From Fervidobacterium gondwanense DSM 13020 (GTDB taxonomy: Bacteria > Thermotogota > Thermotogae > Thermotogales > Fervidobacteriaceae): a DNA stretch of 45,325 bases. Both the position numbers and the translations under genes were made by a program. Location: NCBI RefSeq assembly GCF_900143265.1, contig NZ_FRDJ01000013.1, forward strand, positions 1 through 45,325, given 5' to 3'. The notes below the pieces were generated by a model. That model ran no database searches, was not told where the DNA came from, and saw only the letters and a program-made list of their open reading frames with translations. Shown here piece by piece: positions 16,939 to 33,989 of the stretch (position 1 is the first letter of the stretch; each line of letters begins with the position of its first letter).

Positions 16939-18762
16939 CTATTGTGCTACGTTTGGATAATATACGAGAATTAGACTGAGTTTGTTATTCCAAACATCTG
17001 ATGTCCAACCTTTATCAGATAATATGGACTGAACGTTCTCTGGATATGCGTCCACATCTGAGAATGTGTATAAAATGATTGTGAAGACATACCCTTCGTC
17101 AAAGATAAGCGTTTTCATTTCCACATTTTCGGGAATGTAGTCAATATATCCATATTCGTAGAGCGTGTCCAAGTCAACCTCCTGAATACCCTCGTAGCCC
17201 AAAAAGTCAAAGACCGCGTATGAAATTTTATCAAGCTCGTCTGCTATCTCATATTCAACATCACTATACTCTCCCCATTCTACTTCCTCTGTTGTTTCTT
17301 CATAGTATTCTTCCTCATATTCTTCGGAATAGTCTTCCCACTCTTCTTCATATTCTTCCTCGAATTCATCGTACTCTTCTTCATAATATTCGTCATATTC
17401 CTCTTCATATTCTTCCCAATCTTCCTCGTAGTCATAATACTCGTATTCTTCTTCATACGACTCTTCAGCTTTCTCCATTAAGTATTCTAAAAGGAGCATC
17501 GGATTAGTGAAATCACACGATACTAATGTGTTTCCGTTCTGAAGCGTGGTAATTGTAAATTCCAGATAACTGCCTAATTCATCAACTTGAACATTCACCC
17601 TGAAATACAAGTGTGAGTCATTTGTAAAAACACCGAGCTCCGTACTATTATCCAGTTCCTGTGACGATAACAGTGCGATCTTCTTATCCTGAAGAAGTTT
17701 ATAACTCAAACCATTTCTTTTGAGAAGTTCAAGTATAAGCCTAATGTCTTTCTCATACTCGGGAATATATTTTACGGAAAATAAGAATCCTTCTTCCGAA
17801 ATTGAGCCAAAAACTGACTCAACGGAATCCAAAAAACCTTCGAGTGCCTTTACAAACCGCTCCTCATCACCCGCAATCTCCTCCAAAAGACCAAACATCA
17901 GTATTTGTTTAACATTTTCCAGCACATCGAGACGAAAACCAAATGTGTAAGGTGAGTCTTTAACAAAATAGTGCCCTTTTAACGCTCCTATTCTTGAAAG
18001 TGCCAACTTTCGTTCGTACTCTACATAGGATTTGCTTACTGATAGTTCAAAATGATATTCATCTCCGCTCTTCCTAAGAAAAGCCTCCTCTGAACTCGGC
18101 GTACCGTAAAAATCTATAAATTGGTACAGGAGATCTCCAACAGGTGAAAATTTCAAAGCTTTATAGTAGAACACGTAATCATCTTTTGTGGATACGGAAT
18201 AAATATGAACTTTAGCATCAAGCATTGCCTTTGTTGACTGTGCAATATAGTTGTTGAAGCAAACGTATATGTTTGTATTTGAGCGAATAACGTACAACTT
18301 ACCAAAAGTCCCAACGGGCACTTCGTAAAGCGTGTTTTTCACAAACTGTGTTATAGATAAACGTGCATTTGAAAGTAGCGACAAAATAGAGATGAGTGTT
18401 TTATCACCAATTTCGCCAGGCAACACCAAACCTAATGGTAAACCGCTCAAAATATCAAGAAAACCGTCTTCAAAATTTTCAAAATCTTCTTCTAAGAGTA
18501 GCGCCAACTTAAATAACTGACCAGGTCCACCCAGAGAGTTTTTTCCATAAATCCCTAGGATTTTAGGAATTCCCAGCTCGTCGAATATCTTTACTATGTC
18601 TATAAATTCTCCTTCAACTTCATCTGTAATCAACTGTTCGAAATTAAAATACATCACGTAGTCGCTGTTTCCTGGTACATTCAGTGTAATGCCATAAACT
18701 GAGACTGATATCAGGAATAAGACCGCAAGTAGTGCTACATTCACTTTGGAAATGTTAAACAT
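16939..18762 (-). CDS. Secreted DUF3352-like protein with a Glu/Tyr-rich tract
   Basis: About 607 residues. A signal peptide is clear (VALLAVLFLISVSVYG, about 8-23), so it is exported. The mature part starts LNVPGNSDYVMYFNFEQL, similar in plan to DUF3352-like proteins and to the protein at 26503-27750 (hydrophobic leader, then a D-Y-x-M/V-x-Y strand and repeated large/small structural blocks). Around residues 427-500 there is an extreme low-complexity stretch of Glu, Tyr, Asp and Trp (units like YEEEY, EEYDEYYEEEYDEFEEEY), followed by about 100 normal residues. Function unknown; a surface or metal-binding role is speculation. Start ATG 18762 follows GGGAGGT; an ATG 7 nt upstream is out of frame. 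The promoter lies against the right end of the IS605 element. Confidence 0.8.
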   Translation of the reverse strand: MFNISKVNVALLAVLFLISVSVYGITLNVPGNSDYVMYFNFEQLITDEVEGEFIDIVKIFDELGIPKILGIYGKNSLGGPGQLFKLALLLEEDFENFEDGFLDILSGLPLGLVLPGEIGDKTLISILSLLSNARLSITQFVKNTLYEVPVGTFGKLYVIRSNTNIYVCFNNYIAQSTKAMLDAKVHIYSVSTKDDYVFYYKALKFSPVGDLLYQFIDFYGTPSSEEAFLRKSGDEYHFELSVSKSYVEYERKLALSRIGALKGHYFVKDSPYTFGFRLDVLENVKQILMFGLLEEIAGDEERFVKALEGFLDSVESVFGSISEEGFLFSVKYIPEYEKDIRLILELLKRNGLSYKLLQDKKIALLSSQELDNSTELGVFTNDSHLYFRVNVQVDELGSYLEFTITTLQNGNTLVSCDFTNPMLLLEYLMEKAEESYEEEYEYYDYEEDWEEYEEEYDEYYEEEYDEFEEEYEEEWEDYSEEYEEEYYEETTEEVEWGEYSDVEYEIADELDKISYAVFDFLGYEGIQEVDLDTLYEYGYIDYIPENVEMKTLIFDEGYVFTIILYTFSDVDAYPENVQSILSDKGWTSDVWNNKLSLILVYYPNVAQ

Positions 18763-18842: not shown

Positions 18843-19010
18843 GTGAACTACCCATTACTAAAGTCACAGGCTTCCTGCTTCATCGACCGGACTTGCTGCA
18901 GTGTTACTTGACAGTAGAGGCCCAGCCTCCACAGGCATGGACTTTCGTCCTCGGGTCGTCCCAGCCCTACCAAAGATTCGGTTATCACGTTATCCCGAGT
19001 TGCAACAGCC
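18843..19010 (-). ncRNA. Candidate omega RNA (reRNA) of TnpB
   Basis: In IS605 elements the tnpB 3' end plus right end encodes the guide RNA scaffold, ending at the element boundary, with the flanking DNA as guide. Here, after the tnpB stop (18985), the minus strand shows a GGAC-GAAA-GTCC hairpin (18950-18939), a GAGGC-TGG-GCCTC hairpin (18929-18917) and the imperfect end hairpin near 18850-18870. The guide would start right after position 18843 and read AATATGATATAATTATTTTA. The upstream limit is a guess. Confidence 0.6.
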
Positions 19011-20202
19011 CTTGTCTTAATATATTCTTCGCTGCGTTTTCATCCCTATCATGTTCCATTCCACACTTTGGACATTTCCATGTCCTTACACTTAGTTCTT
19101 TTACTCCCTCATTCTTGTGTCCACACTTGCTGCAAATCTGTGATGACGGAAAACTTGGTGATACCTGCAAGAATACTCGTCCATACCGTTCTGCTTTGTT
19201 TCTTACCATCTCTACAAACTTTGACCATGATACATCATGAATACTCTTTGTTAGATGACTATTCCGTACAAGATTCTTAACTCTCAAATCTTCGCAGATA
19301 ATTGCTTGGTTTTCGCTAACTACCTGCGAAGATAACTTTTCCAGAAAGTCCTTCCTGATATTTGTTACTCTTTCATGCATTCTTGCAAGCTTTATTCTTA
19401 TCTTCTCAAAGTTCTTGCTTCCTTTCACCTTCCTTGCAAGCTCTCTTTGTAACTTCTTTATTCTCTTTTCATATCTTGCAAGAATCTTTGGATTCTCAAT
19501 ATGCTTTCCTTGACTGTCTACATAGAGATCTTTAACTCCTAAGTCTAAAGCTATTGCGAAATTTTGTGGCGTTTCACTAATTCTACGATTGTACACTTTC
19601 TCTTGTTCTACTGTAATTGATACATAGTACCTCCCGCTTGGGGTTAGTGTTACGGTTGCACTTTTGATTCTGCCATCGAAAGTTCTATGGATTCGTGCTT
19701 TTACCCAACCGAGTTTCGGAAGCTTTATCTTCCCCCAGCAACGGCTTTTGTCTGGATTTATTATTATCTCACCAAAATCGACTTGTATATTGTTATTCGT
19801 AGAGTTCGTCGTATACGAAAACCGATGTGATTTCTTTGTCTTGAATTTTGGACATCTTGCTTGTTTTTTGAAAAATATTTTGTAAGCATTGTCAAGATTT
19901 ATCAAAGCATTTTCGAGAGCAAACTTATCTACTTCCCTAAGCCATGGATATTGCTCTTTTAAAACACTGTTCAAATGCTTTCGACACTCAGGTTCAGTGG
20001 TCGAAAGCTTTTCTTCTTTGTATCTTTGCTCTCTCCAAGCAAGGAAGTAATTCCAAACAAATCTTACACAACCAAATGTCTTGGCTAACAGTGTTTTTTG
20101 TTTTTCATTTGGATAGAGCCTGTATCGATAGGTGACTATAATACTAAACTTGCTCCTTTTGAGAATTGATGTATTTCTTGATTTGCTCTTCAGTATTTTC
20201 AC
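18985..20202 (-). CDS. tnpB: TnpB, RNA-guided nuclease of IS200/IS605 (OrfB)
   Basis: 405 residues as drawn. TnpB is the RuvC-type, omega-RNA-guided endonuclease that helps IS605 copies persist. All active-site parts are present: D220 in ALDLGVKDL, E304 in ICEDLRVKNL and D387 in HDRDENAAKN; the zinc ribbon has C357, C360, C377 and C380. The N-terminal YRYRLYPNEKQ motif starts the recognised homology at about residue 25. The start is doubtful: the only canonical in-frame start is GTG 20202, inside the tnpA remnant and without a ribosome site, while AAAAGGAG sits just before the homologous part, where the suitably spaced codon is ATT (20142). So the natural start is either AUU or lost. Otherwise the reading frame is intact. 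Confidence 0.93.
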   Translation of the reverse strand: MKILKSKSRNTSILKRSKFSIIVTYRYRLYPNEKQKTLLAKTFGCVRFVWNYFLAWREQRYKEEKLSTTEPECRKHLNSVLKEQYPWLREVDKFALENALINLDNAYKIFFKKQARCPKFKTKKSHRFSYTTNSTNNNIQVDFGEIIINPDKSRCWGKIKLPKLGWVKARIHRTFDGRIKSATVTLTPSGRYYVSITVEQEKVYNRRISETPQNFAIALDLGVKDLYVDSQGKHIENPKILARYEKRIKKLQRELARKVKGSKNFEKIRIKLARMHERVTNIRKDFLEKLSSQVVSENQAIICEDLRVKNLVRNSHLTKSIHDVSWSKFVEMVRNKAERYGRVFLQVSPSFPSSQICSKCGHKNEGVKELSVRTWKCPKCGMEHDRDENAAKNILRQGLLQLGIT

Positions 20203-25455: not shown

Positions 25456-25485
25456 AAGGGGACTTCCGTCCCCTTTTGTATTTTC
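25456..25485 (+). terminator. Intrinsic terminator of metH
   Basis: AAGGGGAC (25456-25463), loop TTCC, GTCCCCTT (25468-25475), then TTGTATTTT. It may also serve the convergent gene ending at 25488. Confidence 0.85.
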
Positions 25486-25487
25486 GT

Positions 25488-25883
25488 TCATCTTTTCGTG
25501 TAATAGTCAGTTATAACCTCAAAAAGTTCATCTATTTCTTTTAATTTAGCTTCCTTTACCTCCAAAGGAAGTGAAGATAAAGACAGCATCCTTCTTAAGT
25601 AGTAATACCTAACAGAAATATCTGAATATGAGTCGTTGGGTGTTGCATTAAAAGTTTTAAAAGCCTTCAGAAGTTTTTCATCTGCTTCTGCTCTAAGATT
25701 TCTATACTGTTTTTTATCAAATTCGTTCCTTCTTCCAACATCAGTACCTGATTCTGGTGAAATCAAAAATCTTACTAAGATAAATAACGTGTAGACAGTT
25801 AGGAAGATAGCAAATATCCTTAAAATGATAAACAAGATGCTTATTGGTGGCATCGGAAACGTGAAATAGAACTCATATTCCAC
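25488..25883 (-). CDS. Small membrane protein with a degenerate J-like C-terminus
   Basis: About 131 residues, no recognised family. One or two hydrophobic helices at the N-terminus (ISILFIILRIFAIFLTVYTLFILVRFL, about 12-38), a charged linker, then a helical C-terminus of about 55 residues (FNATPNDSYSDISVRYYYLRRML ... ELFEVITDYYTKR). This end parallels that of the next gene (LGLKSNVPYTKVSEKYYELV ... AYEILTEYYSK), which is J-domain-like but lacks the HPD tripeptide. Start is taken as GTG 25883 after AAGGTGG; ATG 25907, overlapping the upstream gene by 8 nt, has no ribosome site. It is the last gene of a probable three-gene operon with the 25900 and 26503 genes. Function unknown. Confidence 0.7.
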   Translation of the reverse strand: MEYEFYFTFPMPPISILFIILRIFAIFLTVYTLFILVRFLISPESGTDVGRRNEFDKKQYRNLRAEADEKLLKAFKTFNATPNDSYSDISVRYYYLRRMLSLSSLPLEVKEAKLKEIDELFEVITDYYTKR

Positions 25884-25899
25884 AGAACCACCTTCTTTA

Positions 25900-26502
25900 T
25901 CAAGCATTCTTAGAATAGTATTCTGTCAAAATCTCATAAGCTTTTGCAAGCTCGTCTAGAACTTTCTGTCGCATCTCCTCAGACATCTTGGCTCTGTTGA
26001 ATTTCTTAACAAGTTCATAGTACTTTTCGCTTACTTTAGTATACGGTACATTCGATTTAAGACCTAAAAGTCTGAATGCCTCTGCAACACCCATGTCTTT
26101 TTCAGAGGAAGAAGACAAACCTGTTTCAGAGAAACTTCTTTTATACTCAAGCGTCTTTTCTCTTGTATAGTCTTCTGAAGTTTCTTCAAAATCCGATTCT
26201 GTTTTTCTTTCCTTGTTAATTAAATCCTTAATGTCCGTGCTTCTTTCTCTCGTTGGCTTTTTCCCGCCTTTGAAAATCTTGACGATAGTAGACAGTATTG
26301 CATAAGCAAAAATTACGAACACTAAAGTAGGAATGATTATGAAAATGAATGGCAATACTTTCTGAACAAACATAAAGAAATAGTAGTTCTCAAAAACTGA
26401 ACCAAAGATTGAAAGAAATATTAAAATCATGAATGCAAAAAACACAAAGCTAAAACAGCCACTTAATGCATTCTTCTGCTTACTTGCCCCTTTTTCAGAC
26501 AA
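25900..26502 (-). CDS. Membrane protein with a degenerate J-like C-terminal domain
   Basis: 200 residues. Two strongly hydrophobic helices (about 13-35 and 44-72, FIFIIIPTLVFVIFAYAIL), a charged, probably disordered linker (about 78-135, many Ser/Glu/Lys/Arg), then a C-terminal helical domain FRLLGLKSNVPYTKVSEKYYELVKKFN ... VLDELAKAYEILTEYY. That layout (L-G-L, a turn, a helix ending where J proteins have HPD, then AYEIL) is like a J domain, but HPD is replaced by FNR, so DnaK stimulation is not expected. The start TTG 26502 directly follows the upstream stop, with GGTG as ribosome site. Role unknown; a membrane-associated scaffold is only a guess. Confidence 0.72.
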   Translation of the reverse strand: MSEKGASKQKNALSGCFSFVFFAFMILIFLSIFGSVFENYYFFMFVQKVLPFIFIIIPTLVFVIFAYAILSTIVKIFKGGKKPTRERSTDIKDLINKERKTESDFEETSEDYTREKTLEYKRSFSETGLSSSSEKDMGVAEAFRLLGLKSNVPYTKVSEKYYELVKKFNRAKMSEEMRQKVLDELAKAYEILTEYYSKNA

Positions 26503-27750
26503 TCATTTCACCGTTCCTTTTTGAATGATAGAATCACCCTCAACATATGCAACGAATGTCGCGGAAGATTTAATTTTCTTTCCAAGCATCGTGTTTATAA
26601 GCGGTTCAAAGTTTATGAAAACACCCATAAAATACTTTGGATCATAGTTTGCTGTAAAAAACGTCTTATCTCCGGGTTTGTATTTGTTCGGTGCGACCGT
26701 GTACGTAATCATTCTGTCATTCTTTATAAGTAAATAACTCTCCATACCATTTTCTGTAGTGAGAACACCATATTTTTCAGAACCTATCGTAACATACTTC
26801 TTGACTTCTTCTGGCATTTTGAATCCACTTCCAAAAACAACCGAGTAGGATGAAACGGAAACATTTTGGTTATTTTGATTACTCTGATTAGACGTTTGAC
26901 TCTGTGAATCTGCACTAAGCAAACTACTCACAGCTGAACCTATATCTGCCGATGCGTACATCACACCACTTATACTCACGTTTGTTATATTTGCAACGGA
27001 TAACAATGCATCTAAAGTGCTCTTTTTCAAAGCCTCAGGTATCTGCCTGTTAACGAATATGAGCAAATCCCCTCCAACGTTCTTATCTCCGAGCACATCG
27101 ACTGGTTTTGTGTTTTGCAAAGTTTTAAGTGCATTCTTTGCAGCCTGTGTCTTTGCATCTATTTTCTGATAAAGCACAAGTGCGTTGTTCTCCACGCGGA
27201 TGTATCCGTATCCTTCAAACGATATATCTTTATCTACAATATTCGTGTACGTAACACCGAGATTTCCCTTCAACGTGCTCGATAGATTTGCTGGTACTTT
27301 CCCTCCGCCAACTTGCACGTCTGAATACACGAAGTAGTTTTCTACAAATTTTACTTTCTTGAGAGTCTCTTGTTCTAAGAAGCTTTCAAGGACTTTTCTG
27401 ACTTTTGTTGTGTTTTTCACAGGTCCAAGTACGACAGTTATATTTCCTTCTTTATCTGTAGTAACAAGCATTTCTTTCGTGAATAGGTCGAAGTCGCTCA
27501 GTGTGTACTTCATAGATAACAATTGTTGTTCGAGAACACCTAAGACGAGAGATTCAAGACCAATTCCCGTATCAGCCAATAAAGTCTGACCTATCGGAAG
27601 CGCTTTGAAGGCATCGTACGCTTTTGGAAGATCCGGGACATAAACAAGCATGGAATAATCCTTTGGCAAGAATTTCAGCGCATCGGCAAAACTCACTGTT
27701 AACAGCAGTATGGTTAGTAATAAAAAGCTCAATAGTTTTCTCAAGCTCAT
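26503..27750 (-). CDS. Secreted DUF3352-like protein
   Basis: 415 residues, not a firmly recognised family. A cleavable signal peptide is evident (LLSFLLLTILLLTVSFADA, about 6-24). The mature start FLPKDYSMLVYVPDLPKAYDAF and blocks such as KEMLVTTDKEGNITVVLGPVKN and a central VLYQKIDAKTQAAKNAL resemble DUF3352-type proteins. A Gln/Asn/Ser-rich linker (SQSQTSNQSNQNNQN) lies near residue 285. A second secreted protein of similar plan is at 16939-18762, so this looks like a small paralogous family. The ATG follows AGGAGGTG. Its stop abuts the TTG of the J-like membrane protein, so the three genes 27750 to 25488 are likely one unit. It should sit outside the membrane, near the toga. Confidence 0.75.
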   Translation of the reverse strand: MSLRKLLSFLLLTILLLTVSFADALKFLPKDYSMLVYVPDLPKAYDAFKALPIGQTLLADTGIGLESLVLGVLEQQLLSMKYTLSDFDLFTKEMLVTTDKEGNITVVLGPVKNTTKVRKVLESFLEQETLKKVKFVENYFVYSDVQVGGGKVPANLSSTLKGNLGVTYTNIVDKDISFEGYGYIRVENNALVLYQKIDAKTQAAKNALKTLQNTKPVDVLGDKNVGGDLLIFVNRQIPEALKKSTLDALLSVANITNVSISGVMYASADIGSAVSSLLSADSQSQTSNQSNQNNQNVSVSSYSVVFGSGFKMPEEVKKYVTIGSEKYGVLTTENGMESYLLIKNDRMITYTVAPNKYKPGDKTFFTANYDPKYFMGVFINFEPLINTMLGKKIKSSATFVAYVEGDSIIQKGTVK

Positions 27751-27790: not shown

Positions 27791-28927
27791 TCAATCTCTA
27801 TTGTACACCTCATGATATACTTCTTCAAGTTCTTCAAATTTTAACTTTTTGGTAGGTTGGTAGTTAGCAAATTCGCTCTTTCCACCACCTTTTCCACCAA
27901 ATTTCTCTATTAACTTTGATACAAAATTTCTTACATCGTATTTTTTAGAAGCAATTATGTATTTGCTGTTATCGTAAAATACTAAAATGCTGTCTTCGAA
28001 ATTTCCAATTTTAGCTAAGAAATTCCCAACTTCTGTGTATCCTTCTAAGTATACCAGACCTTTATTTGACAAATTCTGACTCAAAACAGTTGCGTATTCC
28101 TGCGAAATCTTAGAAAGTAGTAAAGCTTGGTCTCTGCTCTGGTTCAAAAGCTTTTCCACACGCAGTTCCAATTCGCCCACTGAAGATGTGAGCATTTTGG
28201 AAAGTTTTTTTAAGACGGAATTGTATTTTTGAAAGTATTTCAACGCCCTCTTCCCAGCGACTGCGTAGATCCTTGTGAGATTACCCTTGACTTTCTCAGC
28301 ATCTATTACTTTTATCAAACCTACCTCGCCAGTATTGTTAAGATGAAATCCACCACACGCAGAAACGTCGAAGTTGTCTATTTTTATAAGCCTAACTTCT
28401 CCGGTAACTTTATCGCTTAAGGGTTTTCTCAGGTTGTAATTCTTAGACCCCTCAATGTCCGTTATTATCTCTTCTATTGTATAACAAGATTGTGTAACTC
28501 TATTGGCGAGCTCTTCTGCCTCTGAGATGACTTCGCTTTCCAAAAATGGAACGTCGAGATCTATAGTTGAATACTCCTCGCCCATGTGGAAACTGACGGT
28601 TTCTATATCCGCAACCTCTAAGAACGCAGCTGAGAGAATATGCTGTCCGGTATGTTGCTGGGCGATATCTTTACGTCGCTTTTGATCGACAATGACTTCA
28701 TGGATACCTGGTGTGATAGTGCCAGCAATCTGATGGACAATTTCGTTATCTTTTTCAAAAACATGAAAAACATCTACTCCTGCAATCTTCCCCCTGTCAC
28801 CGAGCTGGCCACCCTTACCGTCTGGATAAAACGGTGATGCATTCGCATATGCATAAAACTTTCCGTCTTTTTCCTCGATTCTTGTAATTTCTACCGTGCT
28901 CTCAAAATACCTCTTGTGTATGAGCAA
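27791..28927 (-). CDS. Alanyl-tRNA editing protein, AlaX-type with DHHA1 domain
   Basis: About 378 residues. AlaX proteins are free-standing copies of the AlaRS editing domain and hydrolyse Ser- or Gly-tRNA(Ala). Zinc-site motifs are complete: QQHTGQHILSAAF (H-x-x-x-H) and SACGGFHLNNTGEVG (C-x-x-x-H). The N-terminal PFYPDGKGGQLGD is the classic first motif. A helical region follows and a C-terminal DHHA1-like domain ends with GGKGGGKSEFANYQ. Thus it is the long AlaX form. Start is taken as TTG 28927 after GGGGTGA; GTG 28936 overlaps that site. It sits 27 nt behind gltX, so it is part of the gltX transcript. Confidence 0.9.
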   Translation of the reverse strand: MLIHKRYFESTVEITRIEEKDGKFYAYANASPFYPDGKGGQLGDRGKIAGVDVFHVFEKDNEIVHQIAGTITPGIHEVIVDQKRRKDIAQQHTGQHILSAAFLEVADIETVSFHMGEEYSTIDLDVPFLESEVISEAEELANRVTQSCYTIEEIITDIEGSKNYNLRKPLSDKVTGEVRLIKIDNFDVSACGGFHLNNTGEVGLIKVIDAEKVKGNLTRIYAVAGKRALKYFQKYNSVLKKLSKMLTSSVGELELRVEKLLNQSRDQALLLSKISQEYATVLSQNLSNKGLVYLEGYTEVGNFLAKIGNFEDSILVFYDNSKYIIASKKYDVRNFVSKLIEKFGGKGGGKSEFANYQPTKKLKFEELEEVYHEVYNRD

Positions 28928-28954
28928 CTCAATCACCCCATAATGCCGAGAGTA

Positions 28955-30397
<1,443 letters not shown>

Positions 30398-30402
30398 TTA
30401 AT

Positions 30403-31578
30403 TCATCGTCTCAAAAACACCGCAGGAACATACAATTCTTCTTCAGTGAGCCCACCGTGCATTCCTGCGAGCCTTTCCTCGCCTCCGCTGTACATATATG
30501 TGAAGGCATTATTCTTTGTTGCAATCATTATAGCATCACCTATTCTGTTGTACAACTCCGGGTGTGTTCTTCCAGGACCAAAGAGTTCCATCTCGAGCGC
30601 TTCTTTATTAGACAAGAAAATTGCTGAATTTGGATAATTCTCGTCAAAGTATAACCTTAACGCATCGTAGGCACTACGCTTCAAAAGGTAGAAATACATC
30701 ATCCTCATCTCTCCACCGGGTGGAGAAGATAAAAGTCTATTAAATGAATCCGTAGGTTTCAAGAAGTTGTTGCTCGAATTTGGAATTTGAATCATTCCGT
30801 GATCAGAAGTGATTACAAAGAGCGAGTCGTGTGGCAGACTTTCAGAGGTAAATCTTTTCAATTCCATAAGTATCCTTGTCATTTCCATATCGTATGCATC
30901 GCTATCTGGTCCTTTTTTGTGCCCCAATCCGTCCAAGTGTCCCCAGTAAACGTAGAGAATTCCGCTCCAGTCTTCTAAAAGTTTCTTTCTAAGTGTTGCT
31001 AACAAGTCGCCCATGTAGTAATAACCCATTATATGTCCGTTCTTGTGTATTAGGTAAGATAATCCAGAATTGGCAATCGACGCGTGTGTTATAACTCCGC
31101 CGTACAATCCCTTTTCCTTTAACTGGTCAAATATGTTATCTATTCGATGGAGTCTTTTTTTCAGAATACTCGAGAATATATTTCCTTCAATTCCAGGATA
31201 AGTAAACTCTATCATGTTTGCAAGTCCGCCGATTTCTCTTAGGTAAAGAATATATCCTAACAATCCGTGTTCTTTTGGGGTCTTCCCTGTAAACCAACTT
31301 GTAACAGCCGCAGCTGTTGTAGAAGGAAAAACGCTCGATACCTTCAATATACTTTCAAACCCAAGTTTTTCGTTCACTTGGATAAATTTGTTGTATCCCA
31401 TTCCATCAACAAGAAATATAACTATCTTATTCACTCCATTGAAAAACCCCTCGAAGGAACCTTCGAGGGGAAATTCTGGGTGATTTGAATGACATCCAAA
31501 ATGTTTAAGAAATCGTGAGAGAAGATTTACAATAGATTTTTGGTAATCAGGCAAATAAAGCTCGTGCTCATTTAACAT
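30403..31578 (-). CDS. Alkaline phosphatase-superfamily phosphodiesterase (NPP-like)
   Basis: 391 residues. Belongs to the type I phosphodiesterase/nucleotide pyrophosphatase group: VIFLVDGMGYNKF (metal Asp, about 57), PSTTAAAVTSWFTGKTPKEHG (nucleophile Thr and the GxxPxxHG box), YVYWGHLDGLGH, and VITSDHGM (metal Asp/His). The N-terminal LPDYQKSIVNLLSRFLKHFG is also a family feature, so the long form is right. The start ATG 31578 shares its A with the malG stop (TAATG), so it is translationally coupled to malG. No signal peptide is seen. A strong terminator-like hairpin lies inside the coding region (31447-31470). Substrate unknown; nucleotides or phosphodiesters are likely. Confidence 0.88.
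   Translation of the reverse strand: MLNEHELYLPDYQKSIVNLLSRFLKHFGCHSNHPEFPLEGSFEGFFNGVNKIVIFLVDGMGYNKFIQVNEKLGFESILKVSSVFPSTTAAAVTSWFTGKTPKEHGLLGYILYLREIGGLANMIEFTYPGIEGNIFSSILKKRLHRIDNIFDQLKEKGLYGGVITHASIANSGLSYLIHKNGHIMGYYYMGDLLATLRKKLLEDWSGILYVYWGHLDGLGHKKGPDSDAYDMEMTRILMELKRFTSESLPHDSLFVITSDHGMIQIPNSSNNFLKPTDSFNRLLSSPPGGEMRMMYFYLLKRSAYDALRLYFDENYPNSAIFLSNKEALEMELFGPGRTHPELYNRIGDAIMIATKNNAFTYMYSGGEERLAGMHGGLTEEELYVPAVFLRR
31442..31470 (-). terminator. Terminator-like hairpin inside the phosphodiesterase gene
   Basis: Perfect 11-bp stem CCCCTCGAAGG (31447-31457) with 31460-31470, 2-base AA centre, followed on the minus strand by TTTTT. It is 108 nt downstream of the malG stop, inside codons for PLEGSFEGFF. 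It could be a partial terminator for mal transcripts. Confidence 0.7.
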
Positions 31579-33989
31579 TAACCTTTTACTGCTCCTTTCA
31601 CAAGGCCTCCAACGATGTACTTTTGCATCAGTAAGAAGAGTATAACCATTGGTATCATACCTATCATCGCTGCTGCAGTGAAAAGTCCCCATTGTGTTTC
31701 AAATGGTCCTGTCGAGAATGTGTAAAGACCGATAGCATAAGTGTACTGTTGAACGTCTTGGAGAATTATCCTTGCAAGAACGAATTCATTGAATGTCCCC
31801 ATGAAAGTTAGTATTACTATAACAGCAAGTATTGGTGAAGCGAGTGGAAGAACTATCTTTACGAATGTCTGCCATCTTGTTGCGCCATCTATAAGTGCGG
31901 CTTCTTCAAGAGAATCTGGAATCGTGTCGTAGTATCCTTTGATAAGGTACATATTATAGGCTATACCACCGAGATACGCAAATATAAGACCCGAGAGCTT
32001 GCTTAAGCCAAATCCAGGTATGTACTTTCCAGCAAATGCCAAGAACGTGTAGATAGCTATCATGTACATTATTGCCGGGAACATTTGAATCAGTAACAAT
32101 CCCATTATACCATACTTTCTTCCTTTGAACCTCATTCTACTGAACGGATATGCGGCTAGTGCTGTTACAGCTGTAATTATTAATGAAACTGAGAGCGAAA
32201 CGATAACACTGTTCAGTATCCATCTCATCATGTAATGGTCAGGTTTCCTTTGCCATATCTGGTCTATTCTGAATGAAGCACCATCAATCTTTTTAGAATA
32301 AGCAGTTATATCCTTTAAATTCAATTTATCGGAGAGTTCGGAAGACTTCCTTGACATAACGTTCATATTTGGCACAACATTGTTTCTGTAAACAGAGAGC
32401 ACAGTGTCAGTAAGCCTTTCCATTGACATTGGTCTGACTTTTACGCCAGTTTTTGAAACGGGCATAAATCTTGGACCTTGGATTTCTATGTCAGACAGGT
32501 ATAACTTCAAGTCACTTATGAAAGGTCCATAATTTTGAACGAACAAGTCATAGTTTGTGAACATATCTTTAGCGGTTCCGGGCCAGTCAAGTTTATTTGC
32601 TATGCTCCTTAGTGTTTTTTGCTTTTTCTCATCCCTAATCAGACTTGCAACATCACTGACTATGCCAAATATTCTTTTTGATTGCAAGTTCAGCATCTGG
32701 AGCTGTGCAGGTAACCTCATGTTTGAGACTCTTGACTTAACTTCGTTCAACTGAACAATGGCAAGCTGCGCTTTTAGGTAAAGCAGTGCATCGTGTATAA
32801 GTTCATAAGCCTTTTCTATCTCTGTATTTATCTCTTCTTTCCTTTTTTCGAGTTTATTTTGCATAGCTTTGTACTTCTCTATCTGACTCTGGAGCGCTAA
32901 CATCTTACTTGTATAATTGTTAAGCTTACTGAGCATTGAGACCGCCTCATTTACCGTACTTGACACCCTTACAGTGAATGTATCAAGCGTATTCAAAAAG
33001 TCAGCGTATGGTGCCTTGTCTTTATCAACTGCGGCAGACCAGTTATTTAGTACTAAATCATAATATTTTTGAAATTCTGTCAATGCTTGATCTATATCGT
33101 TCAAGTCTGTGAACTTTTGGATGTTCAACTGTATGTCTTTAATTTTACTCAGGGTGTTGGTGAATCTTTCCATAATAGCTGTTTCGTCCGGAATCATTTC
33201 CGCATAGACACTTGAGTTTTTTGCAGCTTCGAGCAGTTCTGAAGCAGATTTCAAGACAAGAGTATATTCCGAAAGCTGCGGAATAAGATAAGAACGTATT
33301 GTTCGAACGGAGGCTAAGAATACACCCTGATACTGTGCATAGGATTTTTCTAAGGGTTGCAAAGTCATCTTAACGCTGCTGATTTGCGAATCTATCTCTT
33401 CCAATTCGGATTTCTTATTGCCAATAAGGAGTTCCCATTCCTTTTGTCCTTGGTAAGGGTCGATATCAACAAGTGCACTCAAATCCTCTCCGCTGTTATA
33501 AAGCTCATATGCGGCAACTTGTAAATACTTCGTCGGCTTTTCAAACTTTAGCTCACCAACTATCTTATCAATGTCACTCACATAACCTTTTATTAAAGCA
33601 TCAGAATTTTTCTCGAAGTATTCCCTTAGATTCGATATTGCCGTGTCTATCTGAGACTTCAAATTTTCAGTTTCTTGTATATACTTTTTGAACCTTTGGA
33701 CATCCTCTTTGAAATATTGGGTTGCTTTTTCTATAGTTATTTTATCGTGTGGTGGAGCCATTAGTATAAGTGCATCCATATCGGATACGAGCCTTGGTCC
33801 ATTCTTTTCTGGTGCAAGAAGGTCGATATAATTTTGAAGGGTCATTCTACTACTGAAGAGCTTCGTCGAAAATGCCGCGTTATCCCTTCTAAGCGAGGTA
33901 GAAACAACCCATACTATTGGAAATAGAACAGCTACTGAAATGATTATGAGAATTATATGTGTTAGAATTTTTCTCTCTTTTCGAACCAT
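31578..33989 (-). CDS. malG: Maltose-type ABC transporter permease MalG with giant insert
   Basis: 803 residues, whereas usual MalG is about 280-300. The first helix is at about 10-31; the remaining helices and the EAA loop (YYDTIPDSLEEAALIDGATRWQTF) fill the last 220 residues as in ordinary MalG. Between them, about residues 55-585, is a roughly 530-residue helical, charged insertion with coiled-coil-like stretches (KSELEEIDSQISSVKMTLQPLE; EKYKAMQNKLEKRKEEINTEIEKAYEL). By the topology of MalG this lies outside the membrane. T. maritima MalG is similarly long, so this is a clade feature, but its function is unknown to me. It starts on the last base of the malF stop (TAATG). MalK is not in the window, so the ATPase must be shared. 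Confidence 0.95.
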   Translation of the reverse strand: MVRKERKILTHIILIIISVAVLFPIVWVVSTSLRRDNAAFSTKLFSSRMTLQNYIDLLAPEKNGPRLVSDMDALILMAPPHDKITIEKATQYFKEDVQRFKKYIQETENLKSQIDTAISNLREYFEKNSDALIKGYVSDIDKIVGELKFEKPTKYLQVAAYELYNSGEDLSALVDIDPYQGQKEWELLIGNKKSELEEIDSQISSVKMTLQPLEKSYAQYQGVFLASVRTIRSYLIPQLSEYTLVLKSASELLEAAKNSSVYAEMIPDETAIMERFTNTLSKIKDIQLNIQKFTDLNDIDQALTEFQKYYDLVLNNWSAAVDKDKAPYADFLNTLDTFTVRVSSTVNEAVSMLSKLNNYTSKMLALQSQIEKYKAMQNKLEKRKEEINTEIEKAYELIHDALLYLKAQLAIVQLNEVKSRVSNMRLPAQLQMLNLQSKRIFGIVSDVASLIRDEKKQKTLRSIANKLDWPGTAKDMFTNYDLFVQNYGPFISDLKLYLSDIEIQGPRFMPVSKTGVKVRPMSMERLTDTVLSVYRNNVVPNMNVMSRKSSELSDKLNLKDITAYSKKIDGASFRIDQIWQRKPDHYMMRWILNSVIVSLSVSLIITAVTALAAYPFSRMRFKGRKYGIMGLLLIQMFPAIMYMIAIYTFLAFAGKYIPGFGLSKLSGLIFAYLGGIAYNMYLIKGYYDTIPDSLEEAALIDGATRWQTFVKIVLPLASPILAVIVILTFMGTFNEFVLARIILQDVQQYTYAIGLYTFSTGPFETQWGLFTAAAMIGMIPMVILFLLMQKYIVGGLVKGAVKG

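Follow-up and report, generated by a model that had tools for sequence, protein, structure and literature searches.

On the minus strand of the window (the whole 45,325-nucleotide stretch of Fervidobacterium gondwanense DNA that was analysed), genes are arranged in the order gltX (28955-30358), a gene for an AlaX-like alanyl-tRNA editing protein with tRNA_SAD and DHHA1 domains (27791-28936), P0003 (26503-27750), P0002 (25900-26502) and P0001 (25488-25907). P0003 encodes a 415-aa secreted protein, which carries a signal peptide, has no Pfam match and belongs to a Thermotogota-wide protein family; across the bacterial family of Fervidobacterium the alaX-like gene is a constant upstream neighbour of the P0003 gene, while the other neighbours vary (Omp85 lies upstream in other genera). 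P0003 and P0002 abut, the former ending at 26503 and the latter starting at 26502, and P0001 as called (139 aa) overlaps P0002 by 8 bp. The true start of P0001 is probably a GTG at 25883, which is preceded by a good Shine-Dalgarno sequence (AGAAGGTGG) and agrees, together with the resulting length of 131 aa, with several relatives, the closest among them; the overlap is therefore probably not real, and the two genes would be separated by about 16 bases. Beyond P0001, a minus-strand hairpin at 25456-25475 (AAGGGGACGGAAGTCCCCTT plus a T-rich tail) is a candidate operon terminator, a suggestive feature of a type matched equally often in shuffled sequence and one that could also act for metH on the opposite strand. 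The original prediction of two adjacent reading frames with hydrophobic N-termini, tightly packed behind the gene of a secreted protein, was borne out by this layout and by the signal peptide of P0003. Elsewhere in the window, inspection by eye picked out a 405-aa IS200/IS605-type OrfB/TnpB-like protein with C-terminal zinc-finger CxxC pairs (18985-20202) and an 803-aa MalG-like ABC permease (31578-33989), in which some 500 additional residues, coiled-coil in type, separate the first transmembrane (TM) segment from the permease core.

P0002 (200 aa) consists of two TM segments (residues ~19-37 and ~52-70), a linker modelled with low confidence and a J-like domain without HPD (~136-200, encoded by 25903-26097 on the minus strand). 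P0001 has one TM segment and a paralogous C-terminal J-like domain (25491-25682, minus strand), so that a domain of about 65 aa is common to both proteins; in a genome search the two tails match each other with an E-value of 5.2e-5. In the two TM segments of the P0002 homologues of Fervidobacterium and of a sister genus (g2), the second is directly followed by a K/R-rich stretch, and the J-like homologues of a further genus (g3) have three TM segments. By the positive-inside rule, the tails of P0001 and P0002 are predicted to face the cytosol; most P0001 proteins lack a K/R-rich segment before their TM segment.

The J-like nature of the tails is indicated by four lines of evidence: (i) Pfam DnaJ matches were obtained for 11 of 24 tail homologues at E-values of up to 1, the best being 2.7e-6; (ii) a profile of 19 tails ranks J domains first among PDB sequences (2dn9, E = 3.4e-4; 6iws, 4e-4; CbpA, 6e-3); (iii) hhalign of the tails against 16 Thermotogota DnaJ J domains gave a probability of 81% (P = 1.4e-6) over 64 columns; and (iv) the AlphaFold model of P0002 shows three confident helices in the tail (residues 139-145, 154-170 and 175-199; block-mean pLDDT 86-92), and in a Foldseek search of this model against the PDB, ranks 1 to 42 were all J domains or chains containing one, mostly at probabilities of 0.9-1.0, with a modest E-value of 0.024 for the full-length query. 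The proteins of the window thus share homology with the J domain (PF00226) and its fold, with antiparallel helices II and III, each of them scoring individually under the Pfam cut-off. That the tail might be a convergent three-helix bundle of other than J ancestry is suggested by the score of P0002 alone against Pfam DnaJ, which at 15.5 to 17.8 bits lies under the gathering cut-off of 27.8. However, profile, profile-profile and structure matches agree independently over the entire domain, and when the tail profile was run against 103 Thermotogota genomes, the hits after its own family were 20 orders of magnitude weaker and consisted mostly of canonical DnaJ (~380 aa) from other Thermotogota. 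We consider convergence highly improbable, and chance similarity between three-helix structures was rejected on the agreement of the four tests. The earlier reading of both C-termini as J domains devoid of HPD, with a corresponding fold, is hence upheld.

A second J protein without HPD was seen in the same genome (L046:1492-1860; G000:C11, near 35268). It has 122 aa, reads YSPAK in place of HPD, ends in a cysteine-rich tail and scores 25.9 bits against Pfam DnaJ, slightly below the cut-off. Its gene sits behind that of a small multi-TM protein, and a tail-profile match in another genome (G002:C5, L040) likewise adjoins a similar membrane gene.

The DnaK contacts of a J domain include R22, K26, R27 and HPD, and HPD is needed for a functional J-domain/Hsp70 interaction (PMC8215388). 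We aligned 19 non-redundant tails, with residues numbered as in E. coli DnaJ. HPD is absent from all 19 tails, and its position in P0002 reads N169-R170-A171. The R22 position is occupied by S or N in 17 of the 19 and is basic in none, the K26 position is Y or F in every tail, and at the R27 position E is found in 11/13 tails of the P0002 and g3 types, the remaining tails being mostly non-basic there. The basic DnaK-binding face of J-domain proteins is therefore missing from the tails, most of which do retain Y at the Y25 position. A142, Y154 and E184 are invariant in all 24 tail homologues. Where dS was computable, omega was 0.05-0.17 in the tails vs about 0.1-0.5 elsewhere in the proteins, and most comparisons show the tails to be better conserved than any other part of either membrane protein; on these codon-level data they are under purifying selection. 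Retention of the fold together with a new conserved face marks a domain that has been repurposed and is not decaying; the DnaK face has been rewritten coherently, and the strong conservation of what replaces it (aromatic Y/Y, Y154, E184) suggests a new binding partner.

Judged from their sequences, P0001 and P0002 are unlikely to be ordinary co-chaperones. They might nevertheless still bring DnaK to the membrane by a non-canonical route, or regulate canonical DnaJ and DnaK negatively by binding and holding the two. The retained J fold and the Y at the Y25 position would suit such a role, as would the finding by Pfam of one canonical HPD-containing DnaJ only in the genome, since a membrane recruiter would fill this gap; some of the lost DnaK contacts might also be compensated, which counts against a DnaK-independent reading. 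But HPD, R22, K26 and R27 are all lost, with R27 often reversed to E, and the functional interaction with Hsp70 requires HPD, as cited above; we rate DnaK recruitment or regulation as quite unlikely. We prefer, at a probability of roughly one in two, to read P0001 and P0002 as membrane-anchored J-like modules for docking or dimerisation that work independently of DnaK and serve an envelope task such as the export or assembly of P0003. Both proteins would sit in the inner membrane and display the J-fold domain on the cytosolic side, where, given the loss of HPD and of the basic DnaK-binding face, it would not activate DnaK. The tails would instead provide for docking or dimerisation, much as Pam16/Tim16 and plant CJD1 do; the two tails probably pair with each other or share a cytosolic partner, which they would tie to the membrane during the envelope task.

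The order alaX-P0003-P0002-P0001 is kept in 9/9 Fervidobacterium genomes searched. In the sister genus g2, one J-like gene lies behind P0003 (2/2 genomes), in the order P0003-P0002. The four genomes of genus g3 each have one J-like gene, located away from P0003; it directly adjoins a Mur-ligase/hydrolase/ddl cluster in two of them and is near the cluster in a third. J-like genes were not found in genera g4 and g5 or in two other families of the order (f2 and f3). They are thus confined to three genera of one family, and the pair occurs only in Fervidobacterium. In a phylogenetic tree, the canonical J domains are set apart from a single clade holding all the tails (support 100/100), within which the P0001-type tails form a clade of their own (99/97). 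This topology fits an origin of P0001 and P0002 by tandem duplication in the Fervidobacterium lineage; P0001 is weakly grouped with g3 (80/71), and the order of events is not settled by the tree.

P0003, on the other hand, was found in all of the order's genomes (45/45) and, counted at superfamily level, in 99/103 of those of the phylum; g4, g5, f2, f3 and most Thermotogota have it but no J-like genes. Given these distributions, the three-gene set is a peculiarity of Fervidobacterium, built onto a secreted gene that is old and widespread. The original prediction had proposed the set as a cell-envelope system of Thermotogales: the conserved neighbourhood was found in all nine Fervidobacterium genomes, but the set is specific to that genus and not Thermotogales-wide, and the envelope role is circumstantial. 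The surroundings of P0003 differ among genera. In g3, g4 and g5 an Omp85/POTRA gene and alaX lie upstream of it and gatA/gatB downstream, apart from one g5 genome in which the downstream genes differ; outside these genera it is usually followed by a gene identified by eye as pyruvate-phosphate-dikinase-like.

P0003 has no C-terminal TM segment and was modelled as a mixed alpha/beta protein; the model (mediocre, pLDDT 64.5) had no credible match in the PDB, where TP0453, at a probability of 0.57, is a hint at most. The protein had been described as DUF3352-like (PF11832). P0003 itself and the orthologues tested have no match to this domain, which was also not found anywhere in the genome of the window; what remains is a remote resemblance through the paralogue family of P0003, in which 2 of 13 members match weakly (best E = 0.0011, under the cut-off; best score 19.0 bits, in the paralogue of a relative, vs a gathering cut-off of 26.8). 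A full-length paralogue of P0003 lies elsewhere in the same genome (G000:C9:17040-18404; hhalign 99.4%, E = 2.7e-21). The protein encoded at 16939-18762 (P0004), to which this relationship had been assigned, could not be demonstrated to be a paralogue: BLASTP gave E = 0.96 in a single comparison, and hhalign a probability of 22% over 105 N-terminal columns. P0004 is a 607-aa protein with a signal peptide, a long acidic stretch rich in E and Y (~430-500) and no Pfam match, and within the order its homologues were confined to 7/9 Fervidobacterium and 2/2 g2 genomes. Searches of NCBIfam, PHROGs and PADLOC yielded nothing convincing, the PADLOC 'cyclase' match being weak (E = 0.0087, 82 residues), and literature searches on DUF3352 and on TM0271, which may be the Thermotoga maritima orthologue of P0003, found no papers.

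The clues to an envelope function of the J-like genes, namely the Omp85-alaX-P0003 clusters of the sister genera, the location of the g3 J-like gene beside Mur-ligase/ddl and the secretion of P0003, are circumstantial, coming as they do from gene neighbourhood and from the secreted protein. The main uncertainty is whether any relation exists between the J-like pair and P0003 other than the shared operon. Such a link would not be obligatory, since P0003 often occurs where there are no J-like genes and in g3 the J-like gene and P0003 are not neighbours; direct contact is also doubtful, because the J-like proteins have only short periplasmic stretches. The J-like genes could accordingly be lineage-specific membrane proteins that share the operon by chance and whose function, maybe in the cell wall or in transport, is unrelated to P0003. 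The same two distributional facts, with Mur-ligase, hydrolase and ddl genes beside the g3 gene in two or more of the four genomes, speak for this possibility, against which stands the order P0003-P0002-P0001 in every Fervidobacterium genome searched and P0003-P0002 also in g2; we hold it to be a real option, with the odds somewhat against it.

Mitochondria and plastids are the best-known sources of J-like domains devoid of HPD. With a J fold and no HPD, the tails of P0001 and P0002 fall into the J-like class (Pam16, CJD1) as defined in PMC3196505. By analogy, the closest functional precedents for the docking or dimerisation that we favour would be Tim16 with Tim14 and CJD1 with ARC6: Tim16 binds Tim14, and CJD1, which neither binds Hsp70 nor rescues a dnaJ cbpA mutant, binds another J-like domain (PMC3196505). 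Pam16/Tim16, which works with Pam18/Tim14 in the mitochondrial import motor, likewise has a membrane-associated J-like domain lacking HPD, a J-type partner and an inner-membrane location, a likeness compared at the J domain only; unlike that pair, P0001 and P0002 both lack HPD, both have their own TM segments and have no known import motor. CJD1/ARC6 of the plant plastid is comparable in that a TM protein carries a J-like domain lacking HPD, but there the domain is N-terminal and no secreted-gene neighbour exists (PMC3196505). DjlB and DjlC of E. coli are also bacterial membrane-anchored J proteins, but they are tail-anchored HscC co-chaperones (shown for DjlC, assumed for DjlB; PMC8215388), whereas the J-like domain of P0001 and P0002 is C-terminal and devoid of HPD. 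A small literature search found no bacterial membrane pair of J-like proteins lacking HPD.

To our knowledge, the outer envelope (toga) of Thermotogota is poorly understood, and P0003 represents an uncharacterised secreted family in nearly all members of the phylum. An inner-membrane pair of J-like proteins without HPD that dimerises as an Hsp70-independent dock, and so serves export or envelope assembly of this Thermotogota-wide secreted family, is unlikely in that complete form; if true, it would be a bacterial counterpart of the Pam16/Pam18 pair without the catalytic member.
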